Below, in pieces: positions 11,273 to 30,146 of a DNA stretch of 64,000 bases (position 1 is its first letter; every line of letters begins with the position of its first letter). Origin of the DNA: Leptonema illini DSM 21528 (lineage in GTDB: Bacteria > Spirochaetota > Leptospiria > Leptospirales > Leptonemataceae); contig NZ_JH597773.1 in the NCBI RefSeq assembly GCF_000243335.1, positions 827,989 through 891,988 of the forward strand, in the 5' to 3' direction. Both the position numbers and the translations under genes were made by a program. Below the pieces are notes generated by a model. The model saw only the letters and a program-made list of their open reading frames with translations. It was not told the DNA's origin and did no database searches.

Positions 11273-12335
11273 CGAGAATACGTCCTGCAGCTTCGGGTTG
11301 TGCGAGCTGCCCTGCTCTCTCAGTCATTTTTTTATATTCGGATTTTTGCATCAACTTTTCAAGAGCCTCGGCCAGCTCTCGCGGATCCGTATCTTTGCGA
11401 TCGATGAGAAGGGCCGCCCCGCTTCGTACCGCAACCTCGGCATTGGCCCGTTGATGGTTGTCTGCGGCAAAGGGGTACGGCAGAAGTATCATCGGCAGAC
11501 GAAAGAGAACCGCTTCGGTGATGTTGCCGGCACCGGCACGGCTGAAGCAGATGTCGGCCTTCTCGAAATGCCTGAAGATATCGGCGTCAAAGCCGAATAC
11601 GGCGATGCGCTTACGAAGCGGCGCCTGAAGTAAAAAATCCACTCGCTTCTGAAGCTCATCAGCCAGCGATGCGCCGGCCTGCACGATCCAGTTCAGGCGC
11701 ATCGCAAGCTCGGGATACTCCACCCAGAGCCTCATGAGCATCTCGTTGAGCTGAGCGGCTCCCTGGCTGCCTCCCAGAGCAAGCACGGTGGGATGCGCAC
11801 GAAGCGTGCGCTTCTTCTTCAAATACGGTGCGGCGCGCTTTCGAAGTTTTATTCGCACAGGGTTGCCGGTCAGCATGCTTGAAGCGTCTTCTTCTCCGAA
11901 GGTCAGGAACGTCATTGCGGCAAATCGCTTGAGCATTCTCGTAACCTTTCCCGCTACGGCGTTCTGTTCGCACAGAAAGAGCGGCTTCTTTGCAAGGATC
12001 GCAGCGGCGGCGGCAGGCAGAGAAGGATAACCCCCGAGAGCGATCACGGCCGTCGGCTGAAAATGTCGGATTACCGCTGATGCCTGCTTCAGAGCTCGAA
12101 AAAAATCGAAGGGAAATCTCAAGACCATGCGAATGTCTTTTTTAAGAGCCGGTGCATCGTAGAATTCGACGGTAAAGGGCATTCCGGCAAATCCCGCATA
12201 ACCGCGATTACGGGGAATACTCAGGAAGAGCACCTCTGCCTTGCGGGCTACGGCCTCCTCAGCGAGGGCAAGGCCCGGAGATATGTGACCGCCTGTTCCG
12301 CCGGCCACAATGAGAAGTCGCGCCGTCTCCTTCAT
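11244..12335 (-). CDS. murG: UDP-GlcNAc:lipid I N-acetylglucosaminyltransferase
   Basis: A 363-residue GT28 enzyme that adds GlcNAc to undecaprenyl-PP-MurNAc-pentapeptide, giving lipid II at the inner face of the membrane. The N-terminal G-loop GGTGGHISPG (about 11-20), the second G-loop region LALGGSQGAAQLNE and the donor-site segment SRAGAGNITE are all present. The frame is open further upstream, but the ATG at 12335 overlaps the ftsW stop (ATGA) and fits the normal MurG start. It follows ftsW as in most division/cell-wall clusters, and its end overlaps the receptor-phosphatase gene. Confidence 0.95.
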   Translation of the reverse strand: MKETARLLIVAGGTGGHISPGLALAEEAVARKAEVLFLSIPRNRGYAGFAGMPFTVEFYDAPALKKDIRMVLRFPFDFFRALKQASAVIRHFQPTAVIALGGYPSLPAAAAAILAKKPLFLCEQNAVAGKVTRMLKRFAAMTFLTFGEEDASSMLTGNPVRIKLRKRAAPYLKKKRTLRAHPTVLALGGSQGAAQLNEMLMRLWVEYPELAMRLNWIVQAGASLADELQKRVDFLLQAPLRKRIAVFGFDADIFRHFEKADICFSRAGAGNITEAVLFRLPMILLPYPFAADNHQRANAEVAVRSGAALLIDRKDTDPRELAEALEKLMQKSEYKKMTERAGQLAQPEAAGRILDEVILRSNP

Positions 12336-13459
12336 GCTCTTTCTCCAGATAGAGGCAGAACGGCCCGCTGCCGGTTCTGCGAAGTGAAATTCAGTACCAG
12401 ACCTGCAAGTATATACTGAACGACAAGCGAAGATCCGCCATAGCTCATAAACGGAAGGCTGATGCCCGTCGTGGGCACAACGCCCGTAACGACGAACATA
12501 TTGATCAACGATTGCAGGCCGAAAAGGATCACGCATCCGGCGGCCGATAGCGAGGCGAAATCCTCGGGCAGCTTCGCTATCAGGCGAATGGCTCGGAAGC
12601 AAAAAAATCCGTACAGCAGCACAAGAGCGACAAGCCCGATATAACCGAAATCTTCATAGAACAGGGCGAGTACAAAGTCCGTATGACCGAAGGTCAGGTA
12701 ACGATGCGCCACGCCCGAAGCAAGATCGGTGCCGGTCCACCATCCGTCGCGAAAGGCGCGAAAGGACATCACAAGCTGATAACCCGCCTCGTAGCGATAG
12801 GCGTAGGGATCAAGCCATACCTTCAATCGTTCGAGGCGATACTCCCACAGATAGGCGAGCATAAAAAGAAGCGGCAAAGAGGCGACAAGCACGCCAAGAA
12901 GACGCATCACCGGAAAGCCGGTAATAAAAACAAGACAGGCCAGCACGGCGATCAGCGTCACCGTCGTTCCGTACTGAGGCTCAAGAATGATCAGAAGCAA
13001 TGCAAGCGGAACGGGAGTGCCTCGAATCAGCAGTCGACGCAGATCGCCGCCGCTCTGATAGCGATGCAGAACCCAGGCCGAATACAGAATCAGGGCGATC
13101 TTGGCGAACTCAGACGGCTGAAAGGAGACGGGACCGATCTCAACCCAGCGGTGAAAGCTTTCCCGCGACGATGAGACGCTTTTACCGGCTCCCGGCACAA
13201 AAACAAGAAGAAGGCCGAGTATGGCGATCATCATACCGGGAACCGTCAGGCGTTCTATAAGCGAAGCGGGAAGAAAGATGATGACAAGGAAGGCCGTCAG
13301 ACCGACGACGGTCCAGACGATCTGTCGGTTAACGTAGTAAAACGGATCTTTCATGTCGATGTCAGACATGACGGCAGAGGCGCTGTACAGGGCGATGAGA
13401 CCGACAAGGCCGATCATCAGCACGTTCAAAAAGAGCAGTCGGTCCACCCGCCTCGTCAT
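12332..13459 (-). CDS. ftsW: SEDS-family peptidoglycan glycosyltransferase FtsW
   Basis: A 375-residue polytopic membrane protein with about ten hydrophobic segments. The SEDS signature is clear: RWVEIGPVSFQPSEFAK (about 105-121), and near the C-terminus PTTGISLPFMSYGGSS. SEDS proteins polymerise lipid II together with a class B PBP; FtsW acts at the septum and RodA in elongation. The position between murD and murG identifies it as FtsW rather than RodA. It overlaps both neighbours by 4 bases, so expression is coupled to precursor synthesis. Confidence 0.94.
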   Translation of the reverse strand: MTRRVDRLLFLNVLMIGLVGLIALYSASAVMSDIDMKDPFYYVNRQIVWTVVGLTAFLVIIFLPASLIERLTVPGMMIAILGLLLVFVPGAGKSVSSSRESFHRWVEIGPVSFQPSEFAKIALILYSAWVLHRYQSGGDLRRLLIRGTPVPLALLLIILEPQYGTTVTLIAVLACLVFITGFPVMRLLGVLVASLPLLFMLAYLWEYRLERLKVWLDPYAYRYEAGYQLVMSFRAFRDGWWTGTDLASGVAHRYLTFGHTDFVLALFYEDFGYIGLVALVLLYGFFCFRAIRLIAKLPEDFASLSAAGCVILFGLQSLINMFVVTGVVPTTGISLPFMSYGGSSLVVQYILAGLVLNFTSQNRQRAVLPLSGERA

Positions 13460-14838
13460 TGCAGGGCCAGCCTTCGGAAGTGCTCCCCCCTCTCTTCATA
13501 GTTGCGATAGGCATCCTGCGACGCGCAGGCCGGGCTGAGCAGAATCACGGAATCGGGCTGCGTCGAACCGCCGAAATAGGCCGTCGATCGCCTTGCCTCG
13601 CGCAGCGCTTCATAAAAGGCCTCCTCAAGACCTGCAAAACGACGCGTCACCCCTGTCTGCTCGGCGATCTTATCGGCCGCCTTGCCGAACGGATAGATGC
13701 GCAATCCCTCGCCTTCTCGAAAAAGAGAGAAGTCCGAGTTCTTATCAAGGCCTCCAAGAAGCAGATATACCTTCTTACCTGGAAAGGAGGCCACGGCTGA
13801 AAGGGCCGCATGCACCGTCGTCGCCTTGCTATCGTTCACAAATATGACGCCTTCGCGTTCGACGACGATCTCCTGTCTGTGTGGAAGACCGCGAAAAGAT
13901 TTCAGACCGCGCAGAACCCTTTCATAAAAGGCCGTCGCCGCATAGCCCCCGTCGACGCCTTTTTTCAGAAGGGCCTCGATGCCGGCAAGTGTCATCACCG
14001 CATTGCGGCGATTGGTTTCACTGTTTACGGCAAACTCCGACCACGCGAGAGTAGCGTCGCCCAGGCGCGCCGCAGGTTTATCTTCGCCGACCTCGGTTAA
14101 CACAGAGTTCAGTCTACCGGGGAATTCGTCGGCGCCGATTCCGAGCTCATGGCATGTGGCTAAAATACCGGGGCCGATAACGGCGAAGTCCTCTTTTTCT
14201 TGCAGTGAAAAAAGATTCAGCTTTGCCCGCAGATAATCCGCCATGCCGGCATAGCGATCGAGATGATCGGGAGCGATGTTAAGAAGCAGACCGACATCGG
14301 GCTTGAAATAATGAAGATCTTCAAGCTGATATGAAGAGCATTCGCAAACAAAGACCGTCGTCGGCTGAAGAACGGCAGCCGAAAAAGGAAGGCCATAGTT
14401 TCCGCATTCAAGCGCCTGTATGCCCGCTTCACGCAGAAGATGGGCGATCAGAGCGGTCGTCGTCGATTTTCCGTCCGTTCCGGTGATGGCGACGATGCGG
14501 GCATTGCCGGTATTCTTCTTTAAGTAAAGGTAACCGAGGTCAAGATCTCCGATGATCGGGATGCTGAGATCCCGCGCCCGCGCGAAAAGCGGACCGGAAA
14601 GAGGAACGCCGGGAGAGACGAAGACGATCTCGATCTGGTGTTCGGTTAACAGATCGGCATCCTCGCGCGGACGCACGTCGATCATACCTTCGAGCGAGCC
14701 GTCGGTCTTGCGATCAGTTCCGTACACGACGGCGCCGAGGCCTGTCAGCAGATCGGCCATGGCACGCCCCGTTTTCCCGAGCGCTCCGGTAACGAGCACG
14801 CGGCGGCCTTTCAGATCGAGACTTGCAATATCAAGCAT
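13456..14838 (-). CDS. murD: UDP-N-acetylmuramoylalanine--D-glutamate ligase
   Basis: A 460-residue Mur ligase that adds D-Glu to UDP-MurNAc-L-Ala using ATP. The nucleotide loop GTDGKST (120-126), the conserved NIAPDHLDRY segment in the central domain and the C-terminal HEAD-type segment with NDSKATT and LGGLDK are present. The ATG at 14838 shares one base with the mraY stop (TGATG). The frame is open upstream, but that part lies inside mraY and is not needed. The 3' end overlaps ftsW by 4 bases. Confidence 0.95.
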   Translation of the reverse strand: MLDIASLDLKGRRVLVTGALGKTGRAMADLLTGLGAVVYGTDRKTDGSLEGMIDVRPREDADLLTEHQIEIVFVSPGVPLSGPLFARARDLSIPIIGDLDLGYLYLKKNTGNARIVAITGTDGKSTTTALIAHLLREAGIQALECGNYGLPFSAAVLQPTTVFVCECSSYQLEDLHYFKPDVGLLLNIAPDHLDRYAGMADYLRAKLNLFSLQEKEDFAVIGPGILATCHELGIGADEFPGRLNSVLTEVGEDKPAARLGDATLAWSEFAVNSETNRRNAVMTLAGIEALLKKGVDGGYAATAFYERVLRGLKSFRGLPHRQEIVVEREGVIFVNDSKATTVHAALSAVASFPGKKVYLLLGGLDKNSDFSLFREGEGLRIYPFGKAADKIAEQTGVTRRFAGLEEAFYEALREARRSTAYFGGSTQPDSVILLSPACASQDAYRNYEERGEHFRRLALQ

Positions 14839-15947
14839 CACTGAATCCGGAGCGTCGAAAGGCTGATCAGGCTGAGGATGATTCCGACCAGCCAGAAGCG
14901 AACGACGACGCGCGTCTCGGGCCATCCGCCTAACTCAAAATGATGATGTATCGGCGCCATACGGAAGATGCGCTTGCCGGTAAGCTTGAAAGAGGCGACC
15001 TGAAGAATGACCGAAAGCGCCTCGACGACGAAGATACCGCCGGCAATAACAAGCAGCAGCTCTTTCTTGATGAGAATCGCCGACATGCCAAGCGCTCCGC
15101 CCAGGCTTAACGATCCCGTATCGCCCATAAACACGCGGGCCGGAGGAGCATTGAACCACAGAAATCCGATGCCCGAACCGGCAAGAGCGGCCAGGAAGAC
15201 AGCGATCTCATGGGCGTTCTCAACATACGGAAGGTTCAGATAATCGGCCGTGCGCGGAGTACCGGCAAGATAGGCCATCGCTCCGAAGGTGACGGCGACG
15301 ATAGAGACGTTACCGATCGCAAGGCCGTCAAGGCCGTCGGTAAGATTCACCGCGTGTATAGAACCGAGAATGACGACGAACCAGAAGACAAGACCGATGA
15401 CAAGAGGAAGGGCGAAAAGCGGTTCTTTAAAGAAAGGCATGAAGATGGAGGTCAGTTCGTAGTCGATGCCCTTATCGCGGTTAACGACCTCGGGAGTCGC
15501 CCACCAGTAATTCAGCAAAAAGAAGCCGGCGATCAGAATCGTCAGACCCATCTTCATGCGGGCGCTGAGGCCTTTTTTATTTTTGAGCACGACCTTCGTA
15601 TAATCGTCGGCGAATCCGATCATTCCCAGAAAGATCGTGCAGAGCAGCAGCGTCAGAAACATCGGATGTTCGAGGTTGCCAAAAAGCAGACAGGCCACCG
15701 TAAGGCTTGTGAGAATCAGGATGCCGCCCATCGTCGGCGTACCGGCCTTCACCTGATGCGACTGCGGACCGTCTGACCGGATCGTCTCGCCGAATTTCAG
15801 AACGGTCAGCCAGCGAATCATGCGATCCCCGAAGAAAAACGCAACAAGCATGGCCGTTGTCGCCGCCAGCAGAGCGCGAAAGCTCACGTATCCGAACAGG
15901 CGAAAGAAGCCCGGCAGCTCGAAATGACTGTAGATCAACTCAAACAT
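14838..15947 (-). CDS. mraY: Phospho-N-acetylmuramoyl-pentapeptide transferase
   Basis: A 369-residue integral membrane enzyme that moves phospho-MurNAc-pentapeptide from UDP to undecaprenyl phosphate, making lipid I. Family marks are GTPTMGG (about 69-75), the Asp-rich FADDYTKV, the NLTDGLDGLA loop and MGDTGSLSLGGA. Length and about ten membrane segments match the family. Five bases separate it from the murF stop, and it overlaps murD by one base. Confidence 0.96.
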   Translation of the reverse strand: MFELIYSHFELPGFFRLFGYVSFRALLAATTAMLVAFFFGDRMIRWLTVLKFGETIRSDGPQSHQVKAGTPTMGGILILTSLTVACLLFGNLEHPMFLTLLLCTIFLGMIGFADDYTKVVLKNKKGLSARMKMGLTILIAGFFLLNYWWATPEVVNRDKGIDYELTSIFMPFFKEPLFALPLVIGLVFWFVVILGSIHAVNLTDGLDGLAIGNVSIVAVTFGAMAYLAGTPRTADYLNLPYVENAHEIAVFLAALAGSGIGFLWFNAPPARVFMGDTGSLSLGGALGMSAILIKKELLLVIAGGIFVVEALSVILQVASFKLTGKRIFRMAPIHHHFELGGWPETRVVVRFWLVGIILSLISLSTLRIQ

Positions 15948-15952
15948 ATTCC

Positions 15953-17473
15953 CTATCCTTTTCCAAGCAGCTCACGCAAAACGGGCAAAACCCGCTCCAT
16001 GCGCGCGCTGCGAGATCCCTTCACAAGAATACCGTCAAATCCGCCGACCTGATCCGGATGCTCTTTCAGGTACGTCGACAGACTGAGCGAATCAGAGAAA
16101 TACTTTCCTTCATCGCCGCCCGCTTTTCCGCCGGCTTTCCTGAAGGCGGCATGCATCCCCTTCACGTCGACATTCCCACAAACGAAAAGATCGGCAAAAC
16201 CGGCATCATACAGATCGTCCCCAACCTGCCTGTGACCGGCCTCGCTGAAATGCCCGAGCTCGGCCATATGCCCTGCCAGACAGAGCAGGCGCCCCGAGGG
16301 CAGCAGCTCCCGCAGCGTGCGAATCGACTGACGAAACGAATCCGGATTGGCGTTATAGGTATCGTCGACGATAAGCGTCGAGCCTGCTCTCTCCGTGCGA
16401 AAGCGACCGCGAGCCTGCGGCCTCAGAGCGGCCGTGCAGGCCTCAAGGCCTTCGCCGAACCCGGCATGCTGAAGCAGAAGCACACAGGCCAGGATGTTCG
16501 ACGTCATCGCAGCGCCGGCGTACTCGCCCGACGAATAAAGCGTGTCGTCCAGCCGGAATCCCGAGCCTTCGTAGAGGGCCCGGCGTATCTCCCCTCCCCC
16601 TTGTGAATCGGGTGCCTTTGCTATATCGTCGGTGATCAGCTCAAAGAGGATGGGGCGCACCTTCGCCTTTGCCGCCTGCTCCTGTAAGAGCGCATGGCCC
16701 GGGGCCACAGCCGGGTAGACAATCACACCGCCGCTCATGCCTGTGAGGATCTCAAGCTCGGCCGCCGCCACTTCCTCTATTGAAGAAAAGAACTCCATGT
16801 GCTCAAAGCCGATGCTCGGAACGACGCAATGATGCGCCCTCACGATGCGGCTCAGATGCTCGATCTCGCCCGCATGATTCATGCCGATCTCAAGCACGGC
16901 AACCGACGCCGTATCGGGAAGGGAGAGCAGCGAAAGCGGAACGCCCAGATGATTGTTCCAGTTACCGGGTGTTGCGAAAACGGCATCGTCACCAAGGCGG
17001 CATCGCAGAAGCGAGGACAGGATCTCTTTTGTAGACGTCTTACCGTTTGAGCCGACGACGGCAAAGATGGTTCCGTTATAATGACTTCGTCGGATGGCTG
17101 CCATGCGCTGTAGCGTATGCAGCACGTCGGCACAGCAGAGGATCGCAATATCGGAGCCGTCCGGATTCCCATTCCGGATGCCGTTCAAGTCCTGGTCCGG
17201 GCCGGTCGCTCTGATATCCTCTCTCATGGCCTCTTGCACGGCCACTCGCACCTCATCGACGCGGCCCTGCTCCACTAAAAGAGAAGTAGCGCCGTTTGCA
17301 ACGGCAGCCGCAGCATAAAGATGGCCGTCGGTGTTCTCTCCTTTCATGCAAACAAAGAGATCGCCTGCTCTGGCCTCACGCGAATCGAGCACCGCTCGCT
17401 CAATGCGAAGCTCGCTACGATCGAATCCGATCACGCCGGCAGAGGTCAGGTCGGCTGCCGAAAGAACACACAT
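15953..17473 (-). CDS. murF: UDP-N-acetylmuramoyl-tripeptide--D-alanyl-D-alanine ligase
   Basis: A 506-residue Mur ligase adding D-Ala-D-Ala to the UDP-MurNAc tripeptide. The ATP loop GSNGKTS (141-147), the central-domain NNHLGVPLSLL segment typical of MurF, and DDTYNANPDSF in the C-terminal domain are all seen. An insertion of about 25 residues near 85-110 makes it longer than most MurF proteins. It is the first gene of this mur operon within the window; murE, murC and the ftsQAZ genes are not adjacent. Confidence 0.95.
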   Translation of the reverse strand: MCVLSAADLTSAGVIGFDRSELRIERAVLDSREARAGDLFVCMKGENTDGHLYAAAAVANGATSLLVEQGRVDEVRVAVQEAMREDIRATGPDQDLNGIRNGNPDGSDIAILCCADVLHTLQRMAAIRRSHYNGTIFAVVGSNGKTSTKEILSSLLRCRLGDDAVFATPGNWNNHLGVPLSLLSLPDTASVAVLEIGMNHAGEIEHLSRIVRAHHCVVPSIGFEHMEFFSSIEEVAAAELEILTGMSGGVIVYPAVAPGHALLQEQAAKAKVRPILFELITDDIAKAPDSQGGGEIRRALYEGSGFRLDDTLYSSGEYAGAAMTSNILACVLLLQHAGFGEGLEACTAALRPQARGRFRTERAGSTLIVDDTYNANPDSFRQSIRTLRELLPSGRLLCLAGHMAELGHFSEAGHRQVGDDLYDAGFADLFVCGNVDVKGMHAAFRKAGGKAGGDEGKYFSDSLSLSTYLKEHPDQVGGFDGILVKGSRSARMERVLPVLRELLGKG

Positions 17474-17565: not shown

Positions 17566-19155
17566 TCAGATGCGCGTAAAACGCTGCACGTCTGCCATCG
17601 CTCCTTTGCGCTGATCGGCCGGCTGCCAGATCGCCTTCACACGATCGCCGACGACAACGTCACCGTCGAGCAGATGATAGAAATGCGTGCTTGCTCCGTC
17701 GAGCTTGATGTATCCATACGTGTAGGGCGGCTTCGCCGGCTGTCCGGGGAATTCCAGATGAACGGTTGTGCAGCTTTCGACGACGCCCGTATCGGGAAGC
17801 GCCACAAACTCGAAGGCATCGGCAAAGCAAACGCCGCAGTATAACTTTGGCGGTACCTGAACTCTCTGGCACTTCGAACATACGGTTCCGTAGAAGCGTC
17901 CTTCATGCTGCAGGCCGTCATAGAAGCGCGAGAGCGCCGAACCGCAATGCCATTCATACTCGATGCGCAGACTACCCTCGACGACCGACACGCCTTCTCG
18001 AAGCCTGCGTTCCTCTTCAAGTAGAACGGAGGTATCGACTGAGCCATCTTCTTTTCGCAGAAAGGCATCTACGATCTGCACGTCGTCGACGACGATGCCC
18101 TTGCGTCTGTAGAACTCGCGCATCTGGCGCTCGTCTTCTTTTGCGTTCTGGCGCAGAATGACCATCCCCCTGTTTTTGCGCCCGCGAGCGACAACGGCAT
18201 CAATCACTGCCGGATGAGTGTAAAGCTGCTCGGTGAGCGGATCAACGTCCGCAGAGTCGCTCACCGAGGATACGGTCGCATAACGCTGCTCAAACTCCTT
18301 TTTCAGAGAGGGAGGAATTACGCCGCTCTGCACGAACGTCACACTATTGAATTTCCACAGATGCGTCGATCGAGCGGCAGCCTGATAAAAATAAGCCGGC
18401 GCAATGAGCAGAACCCGGCCATGCTGCTCGCAAAAGGCCTGCACCTCATAGAGAAGAGAATGCACCGAGAAGAGCTCTGCCTGAATCACGTGCGCTTTTT
18501 CAAGCAGCCCGTTGCCGCCCGCCCGCAGCGACTCCGGCTGTGGCGTGACGACGATCACCTGATCGACCTCGCCTGCCTTGCTTCGAATAACATCAAGCGC
18601 CGCTTCATCGATTGCTGCGACGGCTTCCCGTCTTGCATGCGCCGGTTCTGTCTGTGCCGGTTCTGCATGCACCGATTCCTCCTGGACCTGACCGGAGTTA
18701 TCCGCCACAAGAAAGCAAGGGCCGGCGAATACAAGCGCCGCTCCGGGCTTGAGTACATCAAGCATAGACTCGTCGGCACAGACGCGATGAACGAAGGGCG
18801 CCTTCAAATCGGGATGCGAGATCAGAGCAAGAAAGGAGCGCTGATCGTCCACGCCCTCAATACCGTTTCGCCCCGGCCAGCCGTCATAGAGAAGCGATCC
18901 TGCTTCAAACAAAAAGCCATGCACTGACAGAGGCCTTCGGTCGGGCTGCCCGGAGTCAGGAGACACATCAGATTGCGCAAAACCCGGATCCTGAGAAATG
19001 CCCGGATAGAACTGCCCATCCGTAGAAAAAAGCTCCTTTCGTTCGAGCGACTTCAGAAAGTCGCCGATCAAGCCGCCGGGCGTCCAGCGGTGCTGCAGTT
19101 CAACGGCGCCCTGTACGATACGCGGATGTTCCGTTACCGGAAGGTCTATCTTCAT
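17566..19155 (-). CDS. Tandem DUF35 (OB-fold/zinc-ribbon) protein, thiolase partner
   Basis: A 529-residue protein. The C-terminal DUF35 unit (about 390-529) is complete: a lead helix, a zinc ribbon with C426, C429, C440 and C443, then an OB fold. The N-terminal part (about 12-145) looks like a second DUF35 unit: GAVELQHRWTPG parallels GSLRIEYEWHCG, and its OB-like strand segment ends HRVCADESMLDVLKPG, but the four zinc cysteines are gone. Residues about 311-378 resemble the C-terminal subdomain of AMP-forming acyl-CoA ligases (HPAVIDAVV, then IVDAFLRKEDGSVD). DUF35 proteins bind acyl-CoA and bridge thiolase-fold enzymes. The ATG overlaps the upstream thiolase-like gene by 4 bases. Exact reaction unknown. 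Confidence 0.85.
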   Translation of the reverse strand: MKIDLPVTEHPRIVQGAVELQHRWTPGGLIGDFLKSLERKELFSTDGQFYPGISQDPGFAQSDVSPDSGQPDRRPLSVHGFLFEAGSLLYDGWPGRNGIEGVDDQRSFLALISHPDLKAPFVHRVCADESMLDVLKPGAALVFAGPCFLVADNSGQVQEESVHAEPAQTEPAHARREAVAAIDEAALDVIRSKAGEVDQVIVVTPQPESLRAGGNGLLEKAHVIQAELFSVHSLLYEVQAFCEQHGRVLLIAPAYFYQAAARSTHLWKFNSVTFVQSGVIPPSLKKEFEQRYATVSSVSDSADVDPLTEQLYTHPAVIDAVVARGRKNRGMVILRQNAKEDERQMREFYRRKGIVVDDVQIVDAFLRKEDGSVDTSVLLEEERRLREGVSVVEGSLRIEYEWHCGSALSRFYDGLQHEGRFYGTVCSKCQRVQVPPKLYCGVCFADAFEFVALPDTGVVESCTTVHLEFPGQPAKPPYTYGYIKLDGASTHFYHLLDGDVVVGDRVKAIWQPADQRKGAMADVQRFTRI

Positions 19156-20327
19156 TTCTCTGCCCTCACATCGTCGATCGAGCGTTCTTTTGAAAGGATG
19201 CTGATGCTGTGAAATTGAATGGCGCCGCCCCAGCCATGGGCCAGACCGATACGCACGTCGGGAATCTGTCGATCGCCGGCCCGTCCGGTTAACTGTAAGA
19301 CTATCTCTGCCTGACGTATCATCGAGCTCGCTCCGACCGAACTGTTTGAGAGAACGCCGCCCGACGGATTCACGGGAATCCCGCTCACAAGCCCCGGATG
19401 TCGTTCGACGGCCTGCCAGCCTTCGCCATGACCGCAAAGGCCGAGGCCTTCATACCAGATCATATGCTGGCTTGAGAAGGCATCATAGATCTCCATGATA
19501 TCGATCTCAGGCGTGGCGATGCCGGCGCGATCATAACAGAGCTGCGATGCCCGACGCAGCGCTTCGGGCCAGGTCCAGTCTCGATCCACGTGATTCATGC
19601 CGTCCGAGACGGCCGCCATCGCCTGAATATAGACGACGGGCAGACGCCGGCGCTCGGCCAGATCGGCTCTCTGCACGATCAGAGCGCAGGCGGCGTCGCT
19701 TGTGGGGCAGGAATCGAGCAGACGCAGCGGAGTGGATAACCAGTCCATACGAAGAGCGGCCTCTTCGGTCAGGCCGGGTAGACGTAGCTGTGCGTAAGGG
19801 TTATTCATAGCGTTTTCACGCATCTTCACGCCGATGCGGGCCAGATGATGACCGTCGGCATCGGGATAACGCTTCATGTACATCGATGCCTGATTGGCGA
19901 CGGCCGAAGGAGCGCCTGCGGCAAAATCCCGTCCGAGCAGCGGCGAATAAACAAGCGAAAGACCGTATTGTACGGCGCTCTCGCTGAGCTTGTCGCCGGC
20001 CACGGCAATTACCGTATCGTAGCCGCTGCGACACAGCACATCGGCGACCATCGTGGCCGCCGCTCCGACCGTTCCACCGGTAGCGACGCGAAACACCGGC
20101 ACGCCCGGAAGCGTCCATCCTGCGGCCCAGAGCTCGGGGTCGGCGACGCCCTCGAAAAACTCAGGGCCTGAACCGACGACGACGGCGTCGATGGCCGATG
20201 CGGGTAGCCCTGCATCCAGTAGTGCAAGCCGGCATGCCTCGCCGAGCAGCTCCGGATAACAGACATCTTTGCGCTTGAGCCGTGTGCGCGTCTGGCCTGT
20301 GCCGATGATCGCCGTCTCTGCCTTCAT
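19152..20327 (-). CDS. SCP2/Ltp2-type thiolase-fold protein lacking classical catalytic residues
   Basis: A 391-residue thiolase-fold protein of the SCP2 (sterol carrier X) branch. The nucleophile loop reads VATGGT (81-86), where thiolases have Cys-Ala-Ser-Gly. The NPSGG loop (320-324) continues VLSNSSVGAS, so the usual Gly-His-Pro is absent. The last Cys-Gly motif is replaced by GLAHGWGG (361-368). Ltp2-type steroid retro-aldolases, which also pair with DUF35 proteins, are thiolase-fold enzymes that do not do Claisen chemistry; the YDAF motif (281-284) would fit that group. An aldolase or aldol-type lyase on a CoA thioester is the best guess. It overlaps both neighbours by 4 bases. Confidence 0.85.
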   Translation of the reverse strand: MKAETAIIGTGQTRTRLKRKDVCYPELLGEACRLALLDAGLPASAIDAVVVGSGPEFFEGVADPELWAAGWTLPGVPVFRVATGGTVGAAATMVADVLCRSGYDTVIAVAGDKLSESAVQYGLSLVYSPLLGRDFAAGAPSAVANQASMYMKRYPDADGHHLARIGVKMRENAMNNPYAQLRLPGLTEEAALRMDWLSTPLRLLDSCPTSDAACALIVQRADLAERRRLPVVYIQAMAAVSDGMNHVDRDWTWPEALRRASQLCYDRAGIATPEIDIMEIYDAFSSQHMIWYEGLGLCGHGEGWQAVERHPGLVSGIPVNPSGGVLSNSSVGASSMIRQAEIVLQLTGRAGDRQIPDVRIGLAHGWGGAIQFHSISILSKERSIDDVRAEK

Positions 20328-21484
20328 TTCTCTGCTCCTGTATGTGATGCTGAAGCGGGTAACGCGGTCGTCTGTGAGCGATTGCTCAGATGAAAGCTTG
20401 ATACCGAGGCAAGGCCGGCAGAAGAAATCACAAGCGCGTCGGCCTCGTTTCCTTTCGCCGCCTCCTTCGTTAACAATTCATGGGCGGCCAGTATCCGGGC
20501 CGCTCCCGTCGCCGGAGGCGAATACACGCAGGGGCCCGTCGTATTGATGCGGCCGTCGTTCAGATAACTATCGGGATCAGACGTATCAAGAAGACCAAGA
20601 GACTCGGCAAGCATCCATTCATGATGAGCCCATCCGTCGACGAACTCAAGAAACGTTCGTCCGCGAAACAGTGCCTTCGCATCTTTTATAGCCACTCCCC
20701 CTGATGCTTTCCCTTCGCTGGATTCTTCCGGGCTCGCCGTGAATGACTGCATGGCGTCCTGTATGGCCTTTTCTGCCGTATGCCAGAAGGCAAACTCCGA
20801 AAACGGAAAGGCGGCCGTAGCAAGCCCCACCCCAGAAACGGCGGTGAACGAAAGCCCTTTCTTCTGAGCGAAATCCCCCGTAGAAAGAAGCAGGGCCACA
20901 CAGAGATCGCCATACTGCGGCAACATACCTTTGCGAAGCGGCAGAGCCACAGGAGCGGACTTCTCGACGATGTCGACGGCAACGCCGTGCCGGATCGCCC
21001 GACTGCGACATAGATGACTTTCGGTTAAACCTGTTCTTTTCAAGAACTCCGAAGCCTGCAATCCGGCCAGTGCGGTCACCGTTGCCCCGACAGGTCGTTG
21101 AAAAAAGGGATCGGTGCCCATCAGTTCAAGGGCCGCCGTATCGACCTGAGAGGCCTTGCCGTAGGCGACGATCAGGACGCATTGCGAAAGCCCGGCCTTC
21201 AAACGATGTAAACCATAGGCGACGGCCCGACCGGGCTCGCCTTCAAGCTTCGTCTCCTGCTTTAAAAAAGAGCCCGCCGCCTCTACCTGATAGACGTGCT
21301 GTATAGCGATACCTTCGAGGGCGTCGTCGGCATTCTGAACGACAAAATCGATATCGCCGACCGTCAGAGAGGCCGCCTGAAGCGCTCTCTTAACCGTAGC
21401 GTAGACGAGCTCGTCTGTGGAATACTCCGTTGCCTGAAGGGACTGAAACATGGCGCCGCCACAGATGCCCGTTCGGTCTGTCAT
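20324..21484 (-). CDS. Divergent thiolase-fold protein, probably non-catalytic or altered
   Basis: A 386-residue protein with the overall order of thiolase motifs but poor agreement. The nucleophile position falls in LEGEPGRA (80-87) with no cysteine, and the C-terminal loop reads NTTGPCVYSPPATGAA (314-329) instead of the Asn-Gly-His-Pro-Gly pattern. It may be the structural or substrate-binding partner of the next thiolase-like protein, as in heteromeric thiolase/DUF35 complexes. The ATG at 21484 has GGGAG 8 bases upstream; the frame extends to 21535 but would run into the palindrome. First gene of the operon. Confidence 0.75.
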   Translation of the reverse strand: MTDRTGICGGAMFQSLQATEYSTDELVYATVKRALQAASLTVGDIDFVVQNADDALEGIAIQHVYQVEAAGSFLKQETKLEGEPGRAVAYGLHRLKAGLSQCVLIVAYGKASQVDTAALELMGTDPFFQRPVGATVTALAGLQASEFLKRTGLTESHLCRSRAIRHGVAVDIVEKSAPVALPLRKGMLPQYGDLCVALLLSTGDFAQKKGLSFTAVSGVGLATAAFPFSEFAFWHTAEKAIQDAMQSFTASPEESSEGKASGGVAIKDAKALFRGRTFLEFVDGWAHHEWMLAESLGLLDTSDPDSYLNDGRINTTGPCVYSPPATGAARILAAHELLTKEAAKGNEADALVISSAGLASVSSFHLSNRSQTTALPASASHTGAEK

Positions 21485-21512: not shown

Positions 21513-21546
21513 CCAGAAATTGACTGACATGTCAATCAATTTCTGG
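21513..21546. promoter_or_regulatory. 34-bp near-perfect palindrome, candidate operator
   Basis: Two 17-base arms, starting CCAGAAATTGA and meeting at TGACA|TGTCA, match at 16 of 17 positions with no spacer. The centre lies 45 bases upstream of the first thiolase-like ATG. The minus strand reads TTGACA at 21535-21530, so a bound dimer would cover a possible -35 box, though I see no good -10. Size and symmetry suit a TetR- or FadR-like homodimer. No regulator gene is adjacent. Confidence 0.6.
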
Positions 21547-22500: not shown

Positions 22501-24315
22501 TTATCTTACCTCGAAGCGGCGCCGCGCGAACCGGCCGCTTTCATCGATAAGCCGAATCTCATACCGACCGCGTTTCAGGTTTACAAGCATGCGTCCTGCT
22601 TCCACCTTTCTACCGTCAAACCCCGGCACGACCGCTCCGTCGCGAAGAAGCGTCAGTCGCGCAGAGGCGTTCACCTCAAAAGGAATGCTCTGTCCTTCAC
22701 TTCTGTGCGGATCCAGATAGAAGATCTGCCCGGCCATGGGCGAAAGCAACAGGCCGTTCGAACGATCCAGGAGAATACGTCGCACCGTTTCATCGACATG
22801 CCTATCGCCGGGAAGCAGCAGCTCTTCTATTCGACTGCAATCGTCGCCTTCGTCGGGATGACGGCAGATCGACGCCGTTCGCCAATCAGACGGATAACGA
22901 AAGGTCGGATGCCCCTGCCCGGCCAGCATGCGCACGATTTGATGAAAGATACGAGCGGCGCCGCGAAGGCCCGATACGGCGTTCATGCTGGCGCCGCTGT
23001 AATTGCCGACCCAGACGGCGACGATATAGCGGTCCGTATAACCCGCCGTCCATGAATCGCGAAACGACTGCGACGTTCCCGTTTTCGCCGCTACATCGAA
23101 CGGAAAGTCGAGATAGTTCCGGCGACCGAAGCTGATGCGGCGGGCCTCGCGATCTGAAAGGACGTGTGTGATGAGAAGCGACGTCTCACGTGAAAAAAAT
23201 CGCTGCACAGGCGGGCGATCTCTTACAGGCCTGCCGGCTGCCGTCAGAAAGATGGGCCCATCATCGGTTCCCATATAGAGAGGTAAGAGCTCCCCGCCTG
23301 CTGCCGGTATAGAAAAGAGCATGGCCGTTTCAAGCACGGAGGCTCCGCCCGTTCCAAGGGCCATGCTGAGTCCGTATCTTTCCGGATGCTCGATATGATC
23401 CAGGCCGACGTTACGCAAGAAATCCCCGTATTCGCGCACCCCCACAAGCTGAAGCATACGCACGGCAGGGATGTTACGCGACGCCGCCAGGGCTTCCCGG
23501 ACCGTTATGCGACCGGCGAATTCGTTATCATGGTTGCGAGGCTCATACGCCTCGCTACCGTCGAGAATGCGCAGAGGCGTATCGTCCACCGCATCTCCAG
23601 GACGCACGGCGAATCGATCGAAGGCCATTGCATAGATAAAGGGCTTGAGCACCGATCCGGCCTGGCGAACGAGCAGGGCCCCGTTCAGGCCATGCGCCGC
23701 TCCCGTATCGACCATCGCTCGCAGCTGCAGATAATCGTTCTGTCTTTCAAGAACGACGACAGACGTCTGGTAGGCGCCCTGCTCGCGCAACACGGCCAGC
23801 TCGGATCGAACGATGGCGGCGATGCTCTGCTGCATCGCGTCGCTGATCGTCGAGCGGATCTCGCCACGAAAGCCGGTTCGCTCAAGCGTAAGCGCCGGAG
23901 CGTTACCCGCCGTGTGCGTCGCCGTTGAGCCTTCCCCCAACAGAAGAGCGAGATCGCGAATCTGGACCGGCATGAGCACTCCATCCAGAAAAAAAGCGCC
24001 CAGGCGGCTCATACCGGAGCGCAGAACGCCGCTCTGAATCCCCAGACGAACGAGTACGGGCTGCATCAGGTAATCGGCGACGCGAATACGCTCCTGCCAG
24101 CCCGGTTGTTCTCCCGAAAAGAGAACATCGACGTTCCGGACTGTGGCCGTATTAAAATAGATCGTCACTCCCTCTTCAGAGATCAAGCGAAGGGAGTTAA
24201 CAGGGATACGCCGAGCGCTGAGCGAGAGCAGAAGTAACACTAACAGGCCGGGAAGGGCGAGCAGAGTCACGCTCAGAAGCGCTTCTCTGCCCGATCCTGA
24301 AAGCCGCCCTCTCAT
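22501..24315 (-). CDS. PBP1C-like penicillin-binding transpeptidase without GT51 domain
   Basis: A 604-residue inner-membrane-anchored transpeptidase. One hydrophobic segment lies at about 13-33. The transpeptidase motifs are SVLK (S221, K224), SRN (S279-N281) and KTGTS (K411-G413). The last 90 residues match the BiPBP C-terminal beta domain found in PbpC. Typical PBP1C proteins are about 770 residues and begin with a GT51 glycosyltransferase carrying EDxxF-type motifs; none is seen in residues 35-180, so polymerase activity has been lost. Its start overlaps the alpha-2-macroglobulin stop by 4 bases, the well-known pbpC/macroglobulin pairing for envelope repair and protease trapping. Confidence 0.88.
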   Translation of the reverse strand: MRGRLSGSGREALLSVTLLALPGLLVLLLLSLSARRIPVNSLRLISEEGVTIYFNTATVRNVDVLFSGEQPGWQERIRVADYLMQPVLVRLGIQSGVLRSGMSRLGAFFLDGVLMPVQIRDLALLLGEGSTATHTAGNAPALTLERTGFRGEIRSTISDAMQQSIAAIVRSELAVLREQGAYQTSVVVLERQNDYLQLRAMVDTGAAHGLNGALLVRQAGSVLKPFIYAMAFDRFAVRPGDAVDDTPLRILDGSEAYEPRNHDNEFAGRITVREALAASRNIPAVRMLQLVGVREYGDFLRNVGLDHIEHPERYGLSMALGTGGASVLETAMLFSIPAAGGELLPLYMGTDDGPIFLTAAGRPVRDRPPVQRFFSRETSLLITHVLSDREARRISFGRRNYLDFPFDVAAKTGTSQSFRDSWTAGYTDRYIVAVWVGNYSGASMNAVSGLRGAARIFHQIVRMLAGQGHPTFRYPSDWRTASICRHPDEGDDCSRIEELLLPGDRHVDETVRRILLDRSNGLLLSPMAGQIFYLDPHRSEGQSIPFEVNASARLTLLRDGAVVPGFDGRKVEAGRMLVNLKRGRYEIRLIDESGRFARRRFEVR

Positions 24316-27300
24316 TTCGTCGCTTCGACTGCGCCGCCATCCGTTCGACCGAAGATCTCGGGCTCATACATGGCCTGGGCTTGCGCCGGTGGAAGCAGCG
24401 TTCGCCCTGCCTGGATCGGCCGCACAAGATAGATATACTCATGCACACCGGCCGAAAGATAGGGATCGGTGACGATGTAGGCGTCGTAACGCTTCTCGAC
24501 GATCTCGCCCGATCCAAACCATGGGTAATCCGACTGGCCCGTGCGTTCGAGGTCGGCAAGCGACAGCCCCTCGGTTTGAAAGGAGGTGTTAACGATCTCG
24601 GTCGCCGACGCTATCGGATCGCGAAGTAGAAAGTTCGCGATCGGTCTTCGCGTGATGATACGCAGACGCACGGGATAGACGTCTCCGCGCCTCAAGCCTT
24701 TAAGCGATACGGGCTTCATGCGTTCATCGAGAACCTCTCGCGTTATATAGATGCCTTCATCCTTTGCCTGGATTTTCGTGAAATCGACGGCATAGTCGAG
24801 CGTCGCATTGTAATACACCCTGCCCTGCTTCGAGGGGTTCATGATCTTCAACGACTTCGGCTTATCGAGATTCTTCAGGGAGAAGCGCTTGATCAGCGCC
24901 TCCGTATCGACGGAGGTCGAAAGCAGCGGGCTTTTCGCGTCAAAATCCGCTTTAAAAAGATCTTTGCCATCGAGCGAAACGGCGACGCCCGTCGGAATAC
25001 CTTTCTCATAGACCTCATGATAACGCCGTATCGCCATAGCCAGCGCCGCCTCATCATGACTGGACGATTGAAAAACGTTGCGATTCGCCGCTCCGAGCAC
25101 CATCTTCGAAACAAAATCGGGGTGCAGATTGCGTTCGGTTAAATAGCGGATCCAGACGCCCAGAGTCGAGCCGCTTGAATAATAGATACGCGAGGCCGAG
25201 AAGGGCAGCGTCTCGCGAAGCTCGATCTTACGGGTCGAGAAGCTCAGGCGATTCTTGAAATCGTCGATGATGCGATTGGCAGCCGGGCCCGTATCGACCT
25301 TCATGCCATGCGCCGTGAGAAGGGCGTATCCGCGACCGCGCAGCGATAGCTTATCGCTTTCGGCAAGAGCTGACTTCACGAGATCGGCGCGTCCTCGCCC
25401 GTACAGAGAGAGCACATAGTTCAGGTAGGTCATCGTCTCGATCTGATAGAACCTCGTCTCTCTACGCGGGTTATCTCTGTACGCGACAAGATAACTGAGC
25501 GCTCTCGGAACGATGGCGTCCACACGCCCTTTATAGGCGGCCGGAGCGGGCAGCTTGGTTAACGCCTCAAGCACATACGCCGTGAGATAAGGATCGGAGG
25601 ACGATTCGAGCTCCTTCCATAGACGCAGGCCTCCGTCTTCGTTCTGAAACGACGGCAGCGATCCATAGAAAAGATCATTCAGGCGGGCCGGATCATACTC
25701 GCCGCCCGTCTTCGTCGGAGCAAAGGGGCCGGCCATCACATGAACGACCGTCGCCGACGTGCGCTGTTCGAGGCACAGATACGGGTTCAGCGCAAAGAAG
25801 TCGTAACCTGATTTCAATCCCAGAAGCGCCGTGCCCGACATCTGCAGCGAAAGTTCGCCGGGGTTCTCATCGGGATCGGGCACAAGCAGGCCTTCCTCGG
25901 CCGTATCAACGGCTCCGCCTGAAACGGTGAAGGCCTCTCGCACAACTTCCTGCCGCAATGGAACGGAACGGCTCATACCATCGGCGATATCGCCCGTTCC
26001 TTTTGCCCTGAAGCTGAAGGCAATCGATCCGGCATCGAGACGAAACGACGGATTCATAGGATCGACCTTCTCTTTACGCAGGTCCTTCAAGAAGGACGGG
26101 CTTCGCGGAATCTTGCAATAGAACAGTATCTCGCGCGTTTCGCCCGCCGCCAGGCTAACCTCTTTCGTCAGCTTCTGCGGAATGGGTTCTTTTCCGTTCA
26201 GGCCCGATGGGTCGGCGGCGCAGAGAGCGGGGCTGCTCTGAAATTCGAAAACAAAGTCGGATTTCGCCCCCGTCTGGTTAATGACGAGAGCGCCGGCCCA
26301 GATGCCGTCGCCGGGTCGCACGAAGTTAGGCAGAACGGGCATGGTGACGACCGACTTCTGCACGCGAAACTCTTCTTCGGCCTTGCCGTAAAGACCGTCT
26401 TTTGCGGCAAGCGCCATGATACGGAAGGTCGTCAGGTTATCGGGCAGACGGAACTTCAGCGTGATCTTCCCGCCGGCATCGGCGACGAGCACCGGCTTCC
26501 ACTCTGCCGTATAACGAAAGTTCTTGCGCATGCCGTCTTCGCCATCAAGAGCAAAGCCGCCACTTGAGGATTCATCGCCGCCGCCACCAGGCTCGCCCTT
26601 GCCGGCTCGCAGGAACTGGTCGATCAGCGATCCGCGAATATCGAGAACGCGAATACCATAAGGCCTCGCATCATAGAAACGCGAGACGGGATCGGCGAAT
26701 CGATAGCCGACGAGATCAAGGATGGCGCGATCGGCAACGTCGAGAGCAACCTCCGCCCCTGGCGCCGTCTTGATATCGATCTGCATCTCCTGCCCGGGTC
26801 CGCACGGATCGCAGCTCTTTTTAATGGCGACGGGAATGCGCTTCGTGTCCGTGGCAAGGTCGACGTATAACGTGCCCATCTTCACGGCCGGCTTACCCGG
26901 ATCGGCTTCATCGGGAGAAGAGCTCACCTGCACGCGTGGCCTGAAAATCATGACCGATATCTGCACGCCCGGAATATACTCGGCTTTCAAAGGAATATCG
27001 ACGCTCTGCGAAGAGGACGTCATCTCGATGACGCGACGATCGAGTATGTCTTCGCGCTCCACCGTGATCACGGCCTTCGCCTTTTCATACGGCGATTTGA
27101 TCAGAATGCGCGCCGTATCTCCGGGACGGTACTGTCGCTTATCGGCAATCAGTTCGACGGAATCGTCTCCGCTGCCCCACCAGTACCCGTAGCCTTTACC
27201 CGATACGTAAACCGTCGTCTGCGCGAAGGCACCGTCGCCCGTTCTCACAAGGATCTCGTAGGAGCCCGGTTTCGTCGGTCGGAACGTATAAACCTTCGGC

Positions 27301-30146
27301 CCGGAGGCCTCTATAGAATCGCGGCCTTCAAGAATTCGAACAAGAGAGTTGATACGCTGCAGTGATCCGGAGGGGCCCTTCGTCTCGACAACGTTATACG
27401 CGTTTCGAAAAACGTAGACCTCGCCGCGACCGGGCGCCGCCTGTCCTTTGATGTCTACAAAGAGCACCTCGACCGATGCATCTTTATTCTCTTCGAAAAC
27501 ATAGCGCACCGGGCGCACGGCAGGAAAAACGGCCGATGCATAGTGCGTGTACTCGGCATTCTTCGTCACCGATCGGTTCGATGCGTCGAAGACCTTCGCC
27601 TCAAGGCGCATCTTGCGATGTGGACGCACTTCAAGCGTACGCTGCTCTGTCGAAACAAGCGAAATGACGTTGCCTTTTCTGGCCTTTTCGTATTCGGCGG
27701 CAAGCAGATAAGTCCGCTTCTCGGATTCAAAAGAACCGGCCGGCATCTGCATCGTGAAGGCGCCGGCATTATCGAGTCGCCCCTGCCCGCGCAGATGGAT
27801 GCGTTCGATGGAGTTCTCGGGATCGCCCGTTTCAAAGGCCGGGAATTGATTCAGATAAATAGAGGCCGCACGTTCATAGACGACGACGGAGGCGCGTGCC
27901 TGGCTCATCGGTGCGCCAAAAAGATAGCGACCTTCGACGCGCACGGGTGCGGGCGAACTCTGCAGTCGATCCTCCGTTCCCGACGCAAGCACCGTAAAGG
28001 TCAGAGGACGAAACTCCTCGACCTGAAAGTTATCCCATACGCCTCCCATACTATCGGGCGCCTTGCGTCCGACGAACATATTGGGAACGACCGAAATATT
28101 ATAATGGCCGAGAGGAGAGTTCTCAGGAATACGCACGGCGTCATAAACGCCGCCCTGCGCCGTCGGCTTGAGAATCTTTGAATAGATCTGTCGTCCGCGC
28201 GAATCGTTAATCGACACACGCACATCACCCGCCTTGAACGGCATGAGATTCCCGCGCTCAAGCACCGAGAGAACGGCTTTAAACTGCACGGTTTCACCGG
28301 GCCGGTAGAGCTTGCGATCAAACACAAGCATGCCTCTGATCTCGGGCAGGCCTGCGCGATGACTGCCCCACTGCACTCCGCTGTAAACGCGATCGAAGCG
28401 AGCCGTTACAAAGGCCATATCGCCGCCATGTCCGGCGCGACGATCAAGGGCAAGATAAAGCGTCTTATCGCCAAGCGACGGGCTTGCCTTCTCGATACGG
28501 CAATATCCGTTTTTATCGGTCTCGCACGTGCCGCCCTTTGTCGATCCATCGTACTGCCTGACAAGCGTTCCGGGAAGGGCCTCGCCGTTTGATAGCGAAT
28601 GCACCCACACATGGGCGGCAAACGGGCTTTCGCGAACGGTTAACCCGAGATCGGTGCTCTGCAGAATTCCGGGGAAGCTGGCCTTTTCTTTATTGCCCTC
28701 CCAGTCCAGAACGTCGCCTTCGAAGCGGTAGGCGATCCATCCCGTCTTCTTTTCGTTCTTGCCGTCGGGGCGGTTCACGTTCAGGAAGCTCGAAAAATCG
28801 AACTGCCGGGTAAAGACCTGCTCGGGCCCGGCGTTCACAGGCAGAGGAATCTTCTTGAAGTTCAGCTTTTTATGCGGATCGTTTTTATAGTTATCCAGGA
28901 AGGCAAGGATCGCATCGAGGCCGATCGGCGCCACCTCCACCCTGACCTCTTTCATGTTTCCATAGCGGTAGGGAATGCGCGGCGAAAGCATCGCCTCGCT
29001 TGCTCCCCATCCGGCGTTCAGGGTAAGAAACGGACGAACGGCGGGCATGCGAAAGCGAAAGTCTTTCTCAGCAGGCAGGGCATTGCCGTAAACGTCGGGC
29101 AATCCTCTGCGCACGAAAACCCTGTACGACTTACCAGGTTTGACGGGCCAGGAACTTGCCGAAATAAAAGATGTCGAATATCTTTCGTCGGGCTCGGGAA
29201 TCTTAATCTCGTTATTCTTCTCGTCGTACAGACGTATAAACGGATGCGCCTGAACAGGATCGATTTCATTGTTAAAGCGAAGCCCGGTCTCGTAACTATC
29301 CTGAAAGAATTTCGCCTCGTCTTCAAACGTCACCGATACGGGCCCGTAAGTCTGATACTTTCGCGTGAACTCCTGTGCGAGACCGCCTTCCTGGCCTGAG
29401 ATGGGTAACCCTTTTTTTAGAACAAGCGTTACCTGCGCCCCACGCGGAAGAGGCCTCGCCGGACGAATGCGCATATGCTGCTGTGGCACGTCGTCGTCGC
29501 CGATATACTGATCGGCGTCGGGGCCTTCCAGTTCGACGGGTACGGTCGTATTGCCGGCGCGCATCTCGACGAATGGTTTAGCCGTCGACGGATCGACCGG
29601 CAGATTGAAACGAACGCGAATCGACGGAGTGTAGTCGACGGTAACGCCGTCGGACGGGTACATATAATCGACTTTAAGAGCCTCGGTATGAAACGAAAAG
29701 GTGCGATCGGCCTTCAACGCCCGCCCCTGTAGATCTTTGAGCCCGGCCGGAACGATAATCGTATAATGCGTACCGGCCTTCAGCGGTCCGTCGGGTAAAA
29801 AGGCGGCCACCGAGCTTCCGTACCAGCGAAAGCGACCGGAAATCTCGGGCTCGATACGAAAGGGCTTCAGATCTGAAGAATCGACCTTGCCCAGTGGAAT
29901 CAACGCCTGATTGAAAGAAACGACGATCTCCTTCGCCGCCGTGGACGGAAGCTGCCCGGCAGGAACGGCCTGGATTACCTGAAGGCTGTTTGAGTCTATA
30001 TCGGGCTCGGGCAGGTAGCCGGGCGGAGTCTGCGCCTCCATCTTTGCCGTGAAAAACGCAAATCCACCGAGGGCGGTTGCGGCGATCAAGAATAGAAGAC
30101 GACTCTTCGAGGAGGAAAAAAAAGCGAGACGATTTTTCATTTGCAT
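24312..30146 (-). CDS. Bacterial alpha-2-macroglobulin (YfhM-like), thioester type
   Basis: A 1944-residue periplasmic protein. A membrane/signal segment is at about 16-33. Many immunoglobulin-like MG domains follow, then a bait-region section, and the thioester motif CLEQ (C1458-Q1461, bases 25764-25775) begins the alpha-helical thioester domain. A C-terminal receptor-like beta domain completes the family layout. In this family a cleaved bait region exposes the thioester, which traps attacking proteases. There is no lipobox cysteine after the signal segment, unlike the E. coli lipoprotein. Two ATG codons (30146, 30140) are possible. Four-base overlap with the PBP1C-like gene links it to peptidoglycan protection. 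Confidence 0.93.
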   Translation of the reverse strand: MQMKNRLAFFSSSKSRLLFLIAATALGGFAFFTAKMEAQTPPGYLPEPDIDSNSLQVIQAVPAGQLPSTAAKEIVVSFNQALIPLGKVDSSDLKPFRIEPEISGRFRWYGSSVAAFLPDGPLKAGTHYTIIVPAGLKDLQGRALKADRTFSFHTEALKVDYMYPSDGVTVDYTPSIRVRFNLPVDPSTAKPFVEMRAGNTTVPVELEGPDADQYIGDDDVPQQHMRIRPARPLPRGAQVTLVLKKGLPISGQEGGLAQEFTRKYQTYGPVSVTFEDEAKFFQDSYETGLRFNNEIDPVQAHPFIRLYDEKNNEIKIPEPDERYSTSFISASSWPVKPGKSYRVFVRRGLPDVYGNALPAEKDFRFRMPAVRPFLTLNAGWGASEAMLSPRIPYRYGNMKEVRVEVAPIGLDAILAFLDNYKNDPHKKLNFKKIPLPVNAGPEQVFTRQFDFSSFLNVNRPDGKNEKKTGWIAYRFEGDVLDWEGNKEKASFPGILQSTDLGLTVRESPFAAHVWVHSLSNGEALPGTLVRQYDGSTKGGTCETDKNGYCRIEKASPSLGDKTLYLALDRRAGHGGDMAFVTARFDRVYSGVQWGSHRAGLPEIRGMLVFDRKLYRPGETVQFKAVLSVLERGNLMPFKAGDVRVSINDSRGRQIYSKILKPTAQGGVYDAVRIPENSPLGHYNISVVPNMFVGRKAPDSMGGVWDNFQVEEFRPLTFTVLASGTEDRLQSSPAPVRVEGRYLFGAPMSQARASVVVYERAASIYLNQFPAFETGDPENSIERIHLRGQGRLDNAGAFTMQMPAGSFESEKRTYLLAAEYEKARKGNVISLVSTEQRTLEVRPHRKMRLEAKVFDASNRSVTKNAEYTHYASAVFPAVRPVRYVFEENKDASVEVLFVDIKGQAAPGRGEVYVFRNAYNVVETKGPSGSLQRINSLVRILEGRDSIEASGPKVYTFRPTKPGSYEILVRTGDGAFAQTTVYVSGKGYGYWWGSGDDSVELIADKRQYRPGDTARILIKSPYEKAKAVITVEREDILDRRVIEMTSSSQSVDIPLKAEYIPGVQISVMIFRPRVQVSSSPDEADPGKPAVKMGTLYVDLATDTKRIPVAIKKSCDPCGPGQEMQIDIKTAPGAEVALDVADRAILDLVGYRFADPVSRFYDARPYGIRVLDIRGSLIDQFLRAGKGEPGGGGDESSSGGFALDGEDGMRKNFRYTAEWKPVLVADAGGKITLKFRLPDNLTTFRIMALAAKDGLYGKAEEEFRVQKSVVTMPVLPNFVRPGDGIWAGALVINQTGAKSDFVFEFQSSPALCAADPSGLNGKEPIPQKLTKEVSLAAGETREILFYCKIPRSPSFLKDLRKEKVDPMNPSFRLDAGSIAFSFRAKGTGDIADGMSRSVPLRQEVVREAFTVSGGAVDTAEEGLLVPDPDENPGELSLQMSGTALLGLKSGYDFFALNPYLCLEQRTSATVVHVMAGPFAPTKTGGEYDPARLNDLFYGSLPSFQNEDGGLRLWKELESSSDPYLTAYVLEALTKLPAPAAYKGRVDAIVPRALSYLVAYRDNPRRETRFYQIETMTYLNYVLSLYGRGRADLVKSALAESDKLSLRGRGYALLTAHGMKVDTGPAANRIIDDFKNRLSFSTRKIELRETLPFSASRIYYSSGSTLGVWIRYLTERNLHPDFVSKMVLGAANRNVFQSSSHDEAALAMAIRRYHEVYEKGIPTGVAVSLDGKDLFKADFDAKSPLLSTSVDTEALIKRFSLKNLDKPKSLKIMNPSKQGRVYYNATLDYAVDFTKIQAKDEGIYITREVLDERMKPVSLKGLRRGDVYPVRLRIITRRPIANFLLRDPIASATEIVNTSFQTEGLSLADLERTGQSDYPWFGSGEIVEKRYDAYIVTDPYLSAGVHEYIYLVRPIQAGRTLLPPAQAQAMYEPEIFGRTDGGAVEATK

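Follow-up and report, generated by a model that had tools for sequence, protein, structure and literature searches.

A putative Ltp3-Ltp4-DUF35-type operon with two nucleophile-less thiolase-fold subunits in the spirochaete Leptonema illini

The window analysed here is a stretch of 64,000 nt from Leptonema illini DSM 21528 (contig NZ_JH597773.1). It carries an operon of three consecutive genes on the minus strand, here called A, B and C, which encode two thiolase-fold proteins and a protein with two DUF35 units (Table 1). Neighbouring genes overlapped by 4 bases, with ATGA at both junctions (20324-20327 and 19152-19155), as claimed in an earlier note on this DNA. The relatives used for comparison came from 20 loci of a genome scan and from a wider relatives search.

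Table 1 Features of the operon, with positions in the window.
Feature	Position	Strand	Basis
Operator-like palindrome TGACTGACATGTCAATCA, 36 nt before the start codon of A	21521-21538	.	motif scans of genome and relatives
Gene A, 386 aa, thiolase-fold subunit of the A-type (Ltp4-like), divergent, predicted non-catalytic partner	20324-21484	-	NCBIfam, model, residue comparison
Gene B, 391 aa, B-type (Ltp3-like) thiolase-fold subunit, predicted catalytic	19152-20327	-	NCBIfam, alignment with thiolases of known structure, residue comparison
B Gly85 codon, nucleophilic-Cys position	20073-20075	-	alignment; Gly in 36/36 B-type proteins
B Tyr281 codon, in Y-D-A-F, HDCF position	19485-19487	-	Tyr in 36/36 B-type proteins
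Gene C, 529 aa, order DUF35a / synthetase remnant / DUF35b	17566-19155	-	Pfam, hhalign, Foldseek
DUF35a, C residues 9-141, degenerate, without zinc-ribbon cysteines	18733-19131	-	hhalign against free DUF35a of relatives, E 5e-11
Remnant of AMP-forming acyl-CoA synthetase C-terminal subdomain, C residues 306-383	18007-18240	-	colinear with relatives' synthetase-DUF35b fusions; hhalign E 0.015; Foldseek
DUF35b, C residues 392-529, intact zinc-ribbon and OB-fold	17569-17982	-	PF12172 and PF01796 above cut-off; matches 3irb, 6ok1, 9myr, 7pxp

None of the 71 relatives compared (36 B-type, 35 A-type) had a cysteine in the nucleophile column. Neither A nor B had the nucleophilic Cys, the His of GHP or the Cys of CxG, so that the earlier note was right about the missing nucleophile, Gly-His-Pro and final Cys-Gly motifs in two thiolase-fold proteins (alignments, A model, 71 relatives). 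It had named two findings that would speak against this. A mere shift of Cys and His in the alignment was rejected, the 71 relatives being concordant, and so was membership in a catalytically normal thiolase subfamily, with no NCBIfam cut-off reached by A or B. The genome's own thiolase (locus L005) kept the Cys, HDCF and GHP motifs of SCP2-type thiolases.

SCP2-type thiolases of known structure aligned with B over its full length. In this alignment, Gly85, Y281DAF and S-V of B replaced their nucleophilic Cys, HDCF and GHP, respectively. The third motif residue of the B-type proteins was Ala or Pro, never Cys or His. Tyr281 corresponds to Tyr302 in CtSal and to Tyr294 in TcLtp2, both catalytic; TcLtp2 uses this Tyr as a base, and CtSal has Gly at the thiolase Cys position, as does B (PMC12329534). 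Based on these residues, B is predicted to be the catalytic subunit, with Tyr281 and Gly85 as its key residues. The earlier note called one subunit Ltp2-like. B has a Tyr at the catalytic-base position of Ltp2 and Sal, but it is nearer to the PRK08313 group, its best NCBIfam match (322 bits, under the model cut-off of 514), than to Ltp2; we place Ltp3 in that group. Its motif is YDAF, and not the YDHF of Ltp2 or the YDCY of Sal. The steroid aldolases Ltp2-ChsH2 and Sal-Shy share with the operon a DUF35 partner of the same fold; they differ in having a single thiolase-fold subunit, as a central dimer, where two types are found here, and in carrying their DUF35 on a hydratase protein.

Subunit A had LEGEPGRA at the nucleophile site and FVDGW at the HDCF site, and gave no match with PDB sequences. 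Its predicted structure was a thiolase fold (predicted local distance difference test score, pLDDT, 80.9), with 6esq_A as top match (template modelling score, TM, 0.78). The best NCBIfam matches were PRK06066 and PRK07937, all under cut-off. Both the Gly85 and the Tyr281 positions of B varied among the 35 A-type proteins (at the latter, Tyr in 15, His in 13, Gln in 3, and V, C, S or A in the rest), and A of the window was the most eroded. A is predicted to be a pseudo-enzyme partner, having kept the thiolase fold and lost the active-site residues. A second degenerate A was seen on the Rhodococcus qingshengii plasmid pLP1 (locus L059 7090-8004). This shortened A-type protein of 304 aa, annotated as hypothetical, is encoded next to a B-type thiolase-like gene, a DUF35 gene, two acyl-CoA dehydrogenase genes, two MaoC genes and a CoA ligase gene.

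A complex that binds acyl-CoA as a carrier or for lipid transfer, with no catalysis, would agree with the name "lipid-transfer protein" that NCBIfam gives to A-type relatives, and with the proposal that DUF35 is an acyl-CoA binder (PMC2954200). The name is historical and was also given to the aldolase Ltp2, and the invariant Tyr and Gly of B match a proven aldolase site (PMC12329534). We find this explanation improbable.

C was the only PF01796 (DUF35) protein found in the genome. The fold of its DUF35b was near that of the DUF35 domains of Ltp2-ChsH2, Sal-Shy and BbsAB. DUF35a was missed by Pfam and detected by profile comparison, on which it rests, since the model of C had a pLDDT <40 over residues 1-180. 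Of the tandem DUF35 described in the earlier note, both units were thus recovered, but the N-terminal one is zinc-less and divergent, and between the two lies a synthetase remnant. The Foldseek matches of C with acyl-CoA synthetases came from a weak model (pLDDT 52), whose alignment contained synthetases. Most Leptospirales loci with enough sequence had the order A, B, DUF35a, and a fusion of acyl-CoA synthetase with DUF35b. The synthetase was intact, with its YTSGTTGHPKG and GKIQK motifs, in L009, L012, L013, L015, L016 and L017; it had lost ATP-site residues in L007, L008, L010 and L011, and was almost erased in C. This stepwise decay among relatives, together with the intact DUF35b of C, indicates that the dock outlived the enzyme: a docking domain was kept while the enzyme tethered to it was lost.

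The DUF35 fusions listed in PMC2954200 include none with a synthetase, and our literature search, whose coverage left out subscription papers, did not find a DUF35-synthetase fusion. Judged from the sequences, the Leptospirales synthetase-DUF35b fusion, its stepwise decay and its reduction to a remnant in C are new. The dock may descend from a fusion of synthetase and DUF35 that was able to load its own substrate, with the lyase-tethered synthetase dead in some relatives and a scaffold here, and with A as an obligate pseudo-enzyme; we put this forward tentatively, as a possible history that we rather doubt.

To follow the partner genes, we used 30 Leptospirales genomes. A and B occurred together in 15 of the 16 B-positive genomes and were both absent from the other 14; the only B-positive genome without A was 67% complete. 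The co-occurrence held in genus g4, where A and B sit on separate contigs. The acyl-CoA dehydrogenase gene ACAD1 was present in 16/16 B-positive and 3/14 B-negative genomes (Fisher p 7e-6, by genus 0.003, both inflated by shared ancestry), and a pair of acyl-CoA dehydrogenase genes adjoined the operon in two genomes (G005, G022).

The palindrome upstream of A, overlooked by the earlier note together with the synthetase remnant, recurred in the genome. With up to 3 mismatches in the 20-mer around it, there were five sites genome-wide, against a chance expectation of 0.27 strand matches. One preceded A. Three others lay ahead of a FadR-like TetR gene at L074 8399-9082, with the dehydrogenase pair behind it, of a cholesterol-oxidase-like gene, and of a gene for a Baeyer-Villiger monooxygenase; the fifth and weaker site preceded another acyl-CoA dehydrogenase gene (positions outside the window: L074 8396, L081 6716, L082 6344). 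The cholesterol-oxidase-like gene (L081 4917-6629, minus strand) encodes a glucose-methanol-choline (GMC) oxidoreductase (NF058674, 598 bits, cut-off 850, E 1e-179); its position behind the palindrome is no more than a hint at a sterol role. In seven genomes, the pattern TGAnTGA-n4-TCAnTCA stood 18-42 nt upstream of the matched A start; ten genomes had it 653-838 nt ahead of ACAD1, with a TetR gene in between where the locus was read. In genus g2, a third recurrent palindrome site preceded a short-chain dehydrogenase/reductase gene resembling 2,4-dienoyl-CoA reductase (L096). The pattern may define a small FadR-type regulon, with the TetR protein presumably binding at the palindrome, and the palindrome common to the operon and the FadR-like TetR/acyl-CoA dehydrogenase locus is a new finding. 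It ties the A/B pair to a small, testable, operator-defined gene set.

The operator also bears on a comparison with acyltransferases. In PhlABC, two thiolase-fold proteins, one active and one inactive, are joined by a DUF35 protein (PMC2954200), and the operon has the same parts list. It could thus encode a complex of several components that transfers acyl groups or catalyses a condensation by means of a new nucleophile, like PhlABC/MucABC or the archaeal thiolase/3-hydroxy-3-methylglutaryl-CoA (HMG-CoA) synthase. The A model, with 6esq as best match and chains of PhlABC and MucABC further down the list, agrees with this. We nevertheless consider it quite unlikely: PhlC is reported to be the active thiolase-fold subunit and has a catalytic Cys, whereas the nucleophile site holds a Cys in none of the 71 relatives, in either subunit type, and the operator shared with acyl-CoA dehydrogenases points to breakdown rather than acyl transfer. 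Identity with PhlABC was rejected for the Gly85 of B, in place of the catalytic Cys of a PhlC-type subunit; PhlC aligned with B in the C-terminal part only. Identity with the benzoylsuccinyl-CoA thiolase BbsAB was rejected as well (NCBIfam BbsA 30.8 of 250 bits required; BbsB, with B, 83.2 of 750). BbsAB also combines an SCP2-thiolase-like with a DUF35 subunit, but has a single thiolase subunit and catalyses a thiolase reaction.

The closest match in layout came from actinobacteria. Genes for an OB-fold protein, an A-type and a B-type protein were present in plasmid records from Tsukamurella and Streptomyces clavuligerus, and by tblastn Nocardia and Nonomuraea were seen to have this layout too. 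The OB-fold protein is a tandem DUF35 with a first unit lacking the zinc cysteines, as in C, so that adjacent A-type and B-type genes with a DUF35 gene are present in both groups. These triplets have the ltp4/ltp3/Rv3521 layout. In the tree, their first and second subunits fell within the A and B clades, respectively (support 0.82 for the B clade, 0.01 for the joining of all A-types, and 0.97 for an A subclade with actinobacteria and Leptospirales). A review (PMC6678751) termed Ltp3-Ltp4 a "heteromeric aldol-lyase" acting on sterol side chains branched at C24, a claim that goes back to Wilbrink et al. 2012 according to the passages in PMC4761994 and PMC10398937 that cite it. The pairing of an Ltp2-like with a more degenerate subunit, which the earlier note had not seen described, is therefore not new: it is known from the actinobacterial triplets, the Ltp3-Ltp4 review and PhlABC. 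The comparison extends the A/B pair to spirochaetes, planctomycetes and anaerobes.

The operon and the actinobacterial loci of Ltp3-Ltp4-DUF35 layout share two matching thiolase-fold types without the nucleophilic Cys, a tandem DUF35 whose first unit is zinc-less, and overlapping genes. They differ in phylum, in gene order (A-B-C here, DUF35 first in actinobacteria) and in motif (YDAF here, YVPF there); further differences are the synthetase remnant of C and the FadR-like operator upstream. In the literature we found neither a solved structure nor a catalytic assignment of heteromeric Ltp3-Ltp4 aldolases. From the comparison comes a prediction of the subunit and the residue that would do the chemistry in such pairs.

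We think it fairly probable that the operon is a spirochaete counterpart of Ltp3-Ltp4-DUF35, a heteromeric retro-aldolase for a beta-hydroxy acyl-CoA whose chain is branched or resembles an isoprenoid or sterol. The proposal of the earlier note, a heteromeric CoA enzyme of the non-Claisen kind that works with a DUF35 partner, is thereby kept as the best reading of the residue patterns, the co-occurrence in 30 genomes and the common operator. From the computed fold, residue loss, family relations, co-occurrence, common operator and domain erosion, we infer complex formation, reaction, substrate and regulator binding as follows. The acyl-CoA would be dehydrogenated to an enoyl-CoA by the acyl-CoA dehydrogenase pair and then hydrated by a hydratase. 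B would bind the CoA thioester in its thiolase-type pocket, where Tyr281 would remove the beta-hydroxyl proton and Gly85 would give space in place of the thiolase Cys. Cleavage of the alpha-beta bond would release a short acyl-CoA, with an aldehyde or ketone as the other product. A would be the obligate partner of B, with its thiolase fold retained, and C would dock on the A-B pair via DUF35b, with the zinc-less DUF35a as a second contact. The DUF35b of relatives has a live acyl-CoA synthetase tethered to it; here the synthetase has decayed, leaving the dock. The FadR-like TetR regulator probably controls both the operon and the acyl-CoA dehydrogenase pair. The substrate is probably branched, with a sterol hinted at by the oxidase gene and a fatty acid by the FadR-like regulator.

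Several points weigh against this retro-aldolase. The YDAF of B has neither the Cys (Sal) nor the His (Ltp2) beside the Tyr, and an Asn/Ser lies near the position of Ltp2 Tyr344. No hydratase was linked to the operon. We know of no biochemistry for any close relative. The identity with the named Ltp3, Ltp4 and Rv3521 is drawn from actinobacterial triplets of equal layout, not from the sequences of those proteins, and the evidence for Ltp3-Ltp4 itself consists of gene deletions (PMC6678751, PMC4761994, PMC10398937). In the spirochaete family f3 (L042-L055), the motifs were reversed, with YDAF in the A-type and YLPY in the B-type and DUF35 genes alongside; which of the two subunits is active may therefore vary from group to group. 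Finally, A was altered at 26 of the 57 residues invariant in its other orthologues (B at 21/140), and the operon could therefore be decaying.

A non-functional remnant in L. illini of an ancestral enzyme that worked in relatives would explain the deleted loop, the 21-residue insertion and the lost invariant residues of A, as well as the nearly erased synthetase in C. We consider such a remnant unlikely, however, as three open frames with translational-coupling overlaps persist, B retains 119 of its 140 invariant positions, and DUF35b is still intact, as are both the operator and the partner operon.

Just downstream, on the same strand, there is a cluster with ftsW, murD, mraY and murF (12332-17473, named by eye). 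A functional link of the operon to this cluster was unsupported, the relatives having other neighbours. At 22501-30146, an open reading frame resembling a penicillin-binding protein overlaps one of 1944 aa resembling alpha-2-macroglobulin (both recognised by eye), presumably a known type of gene pair.

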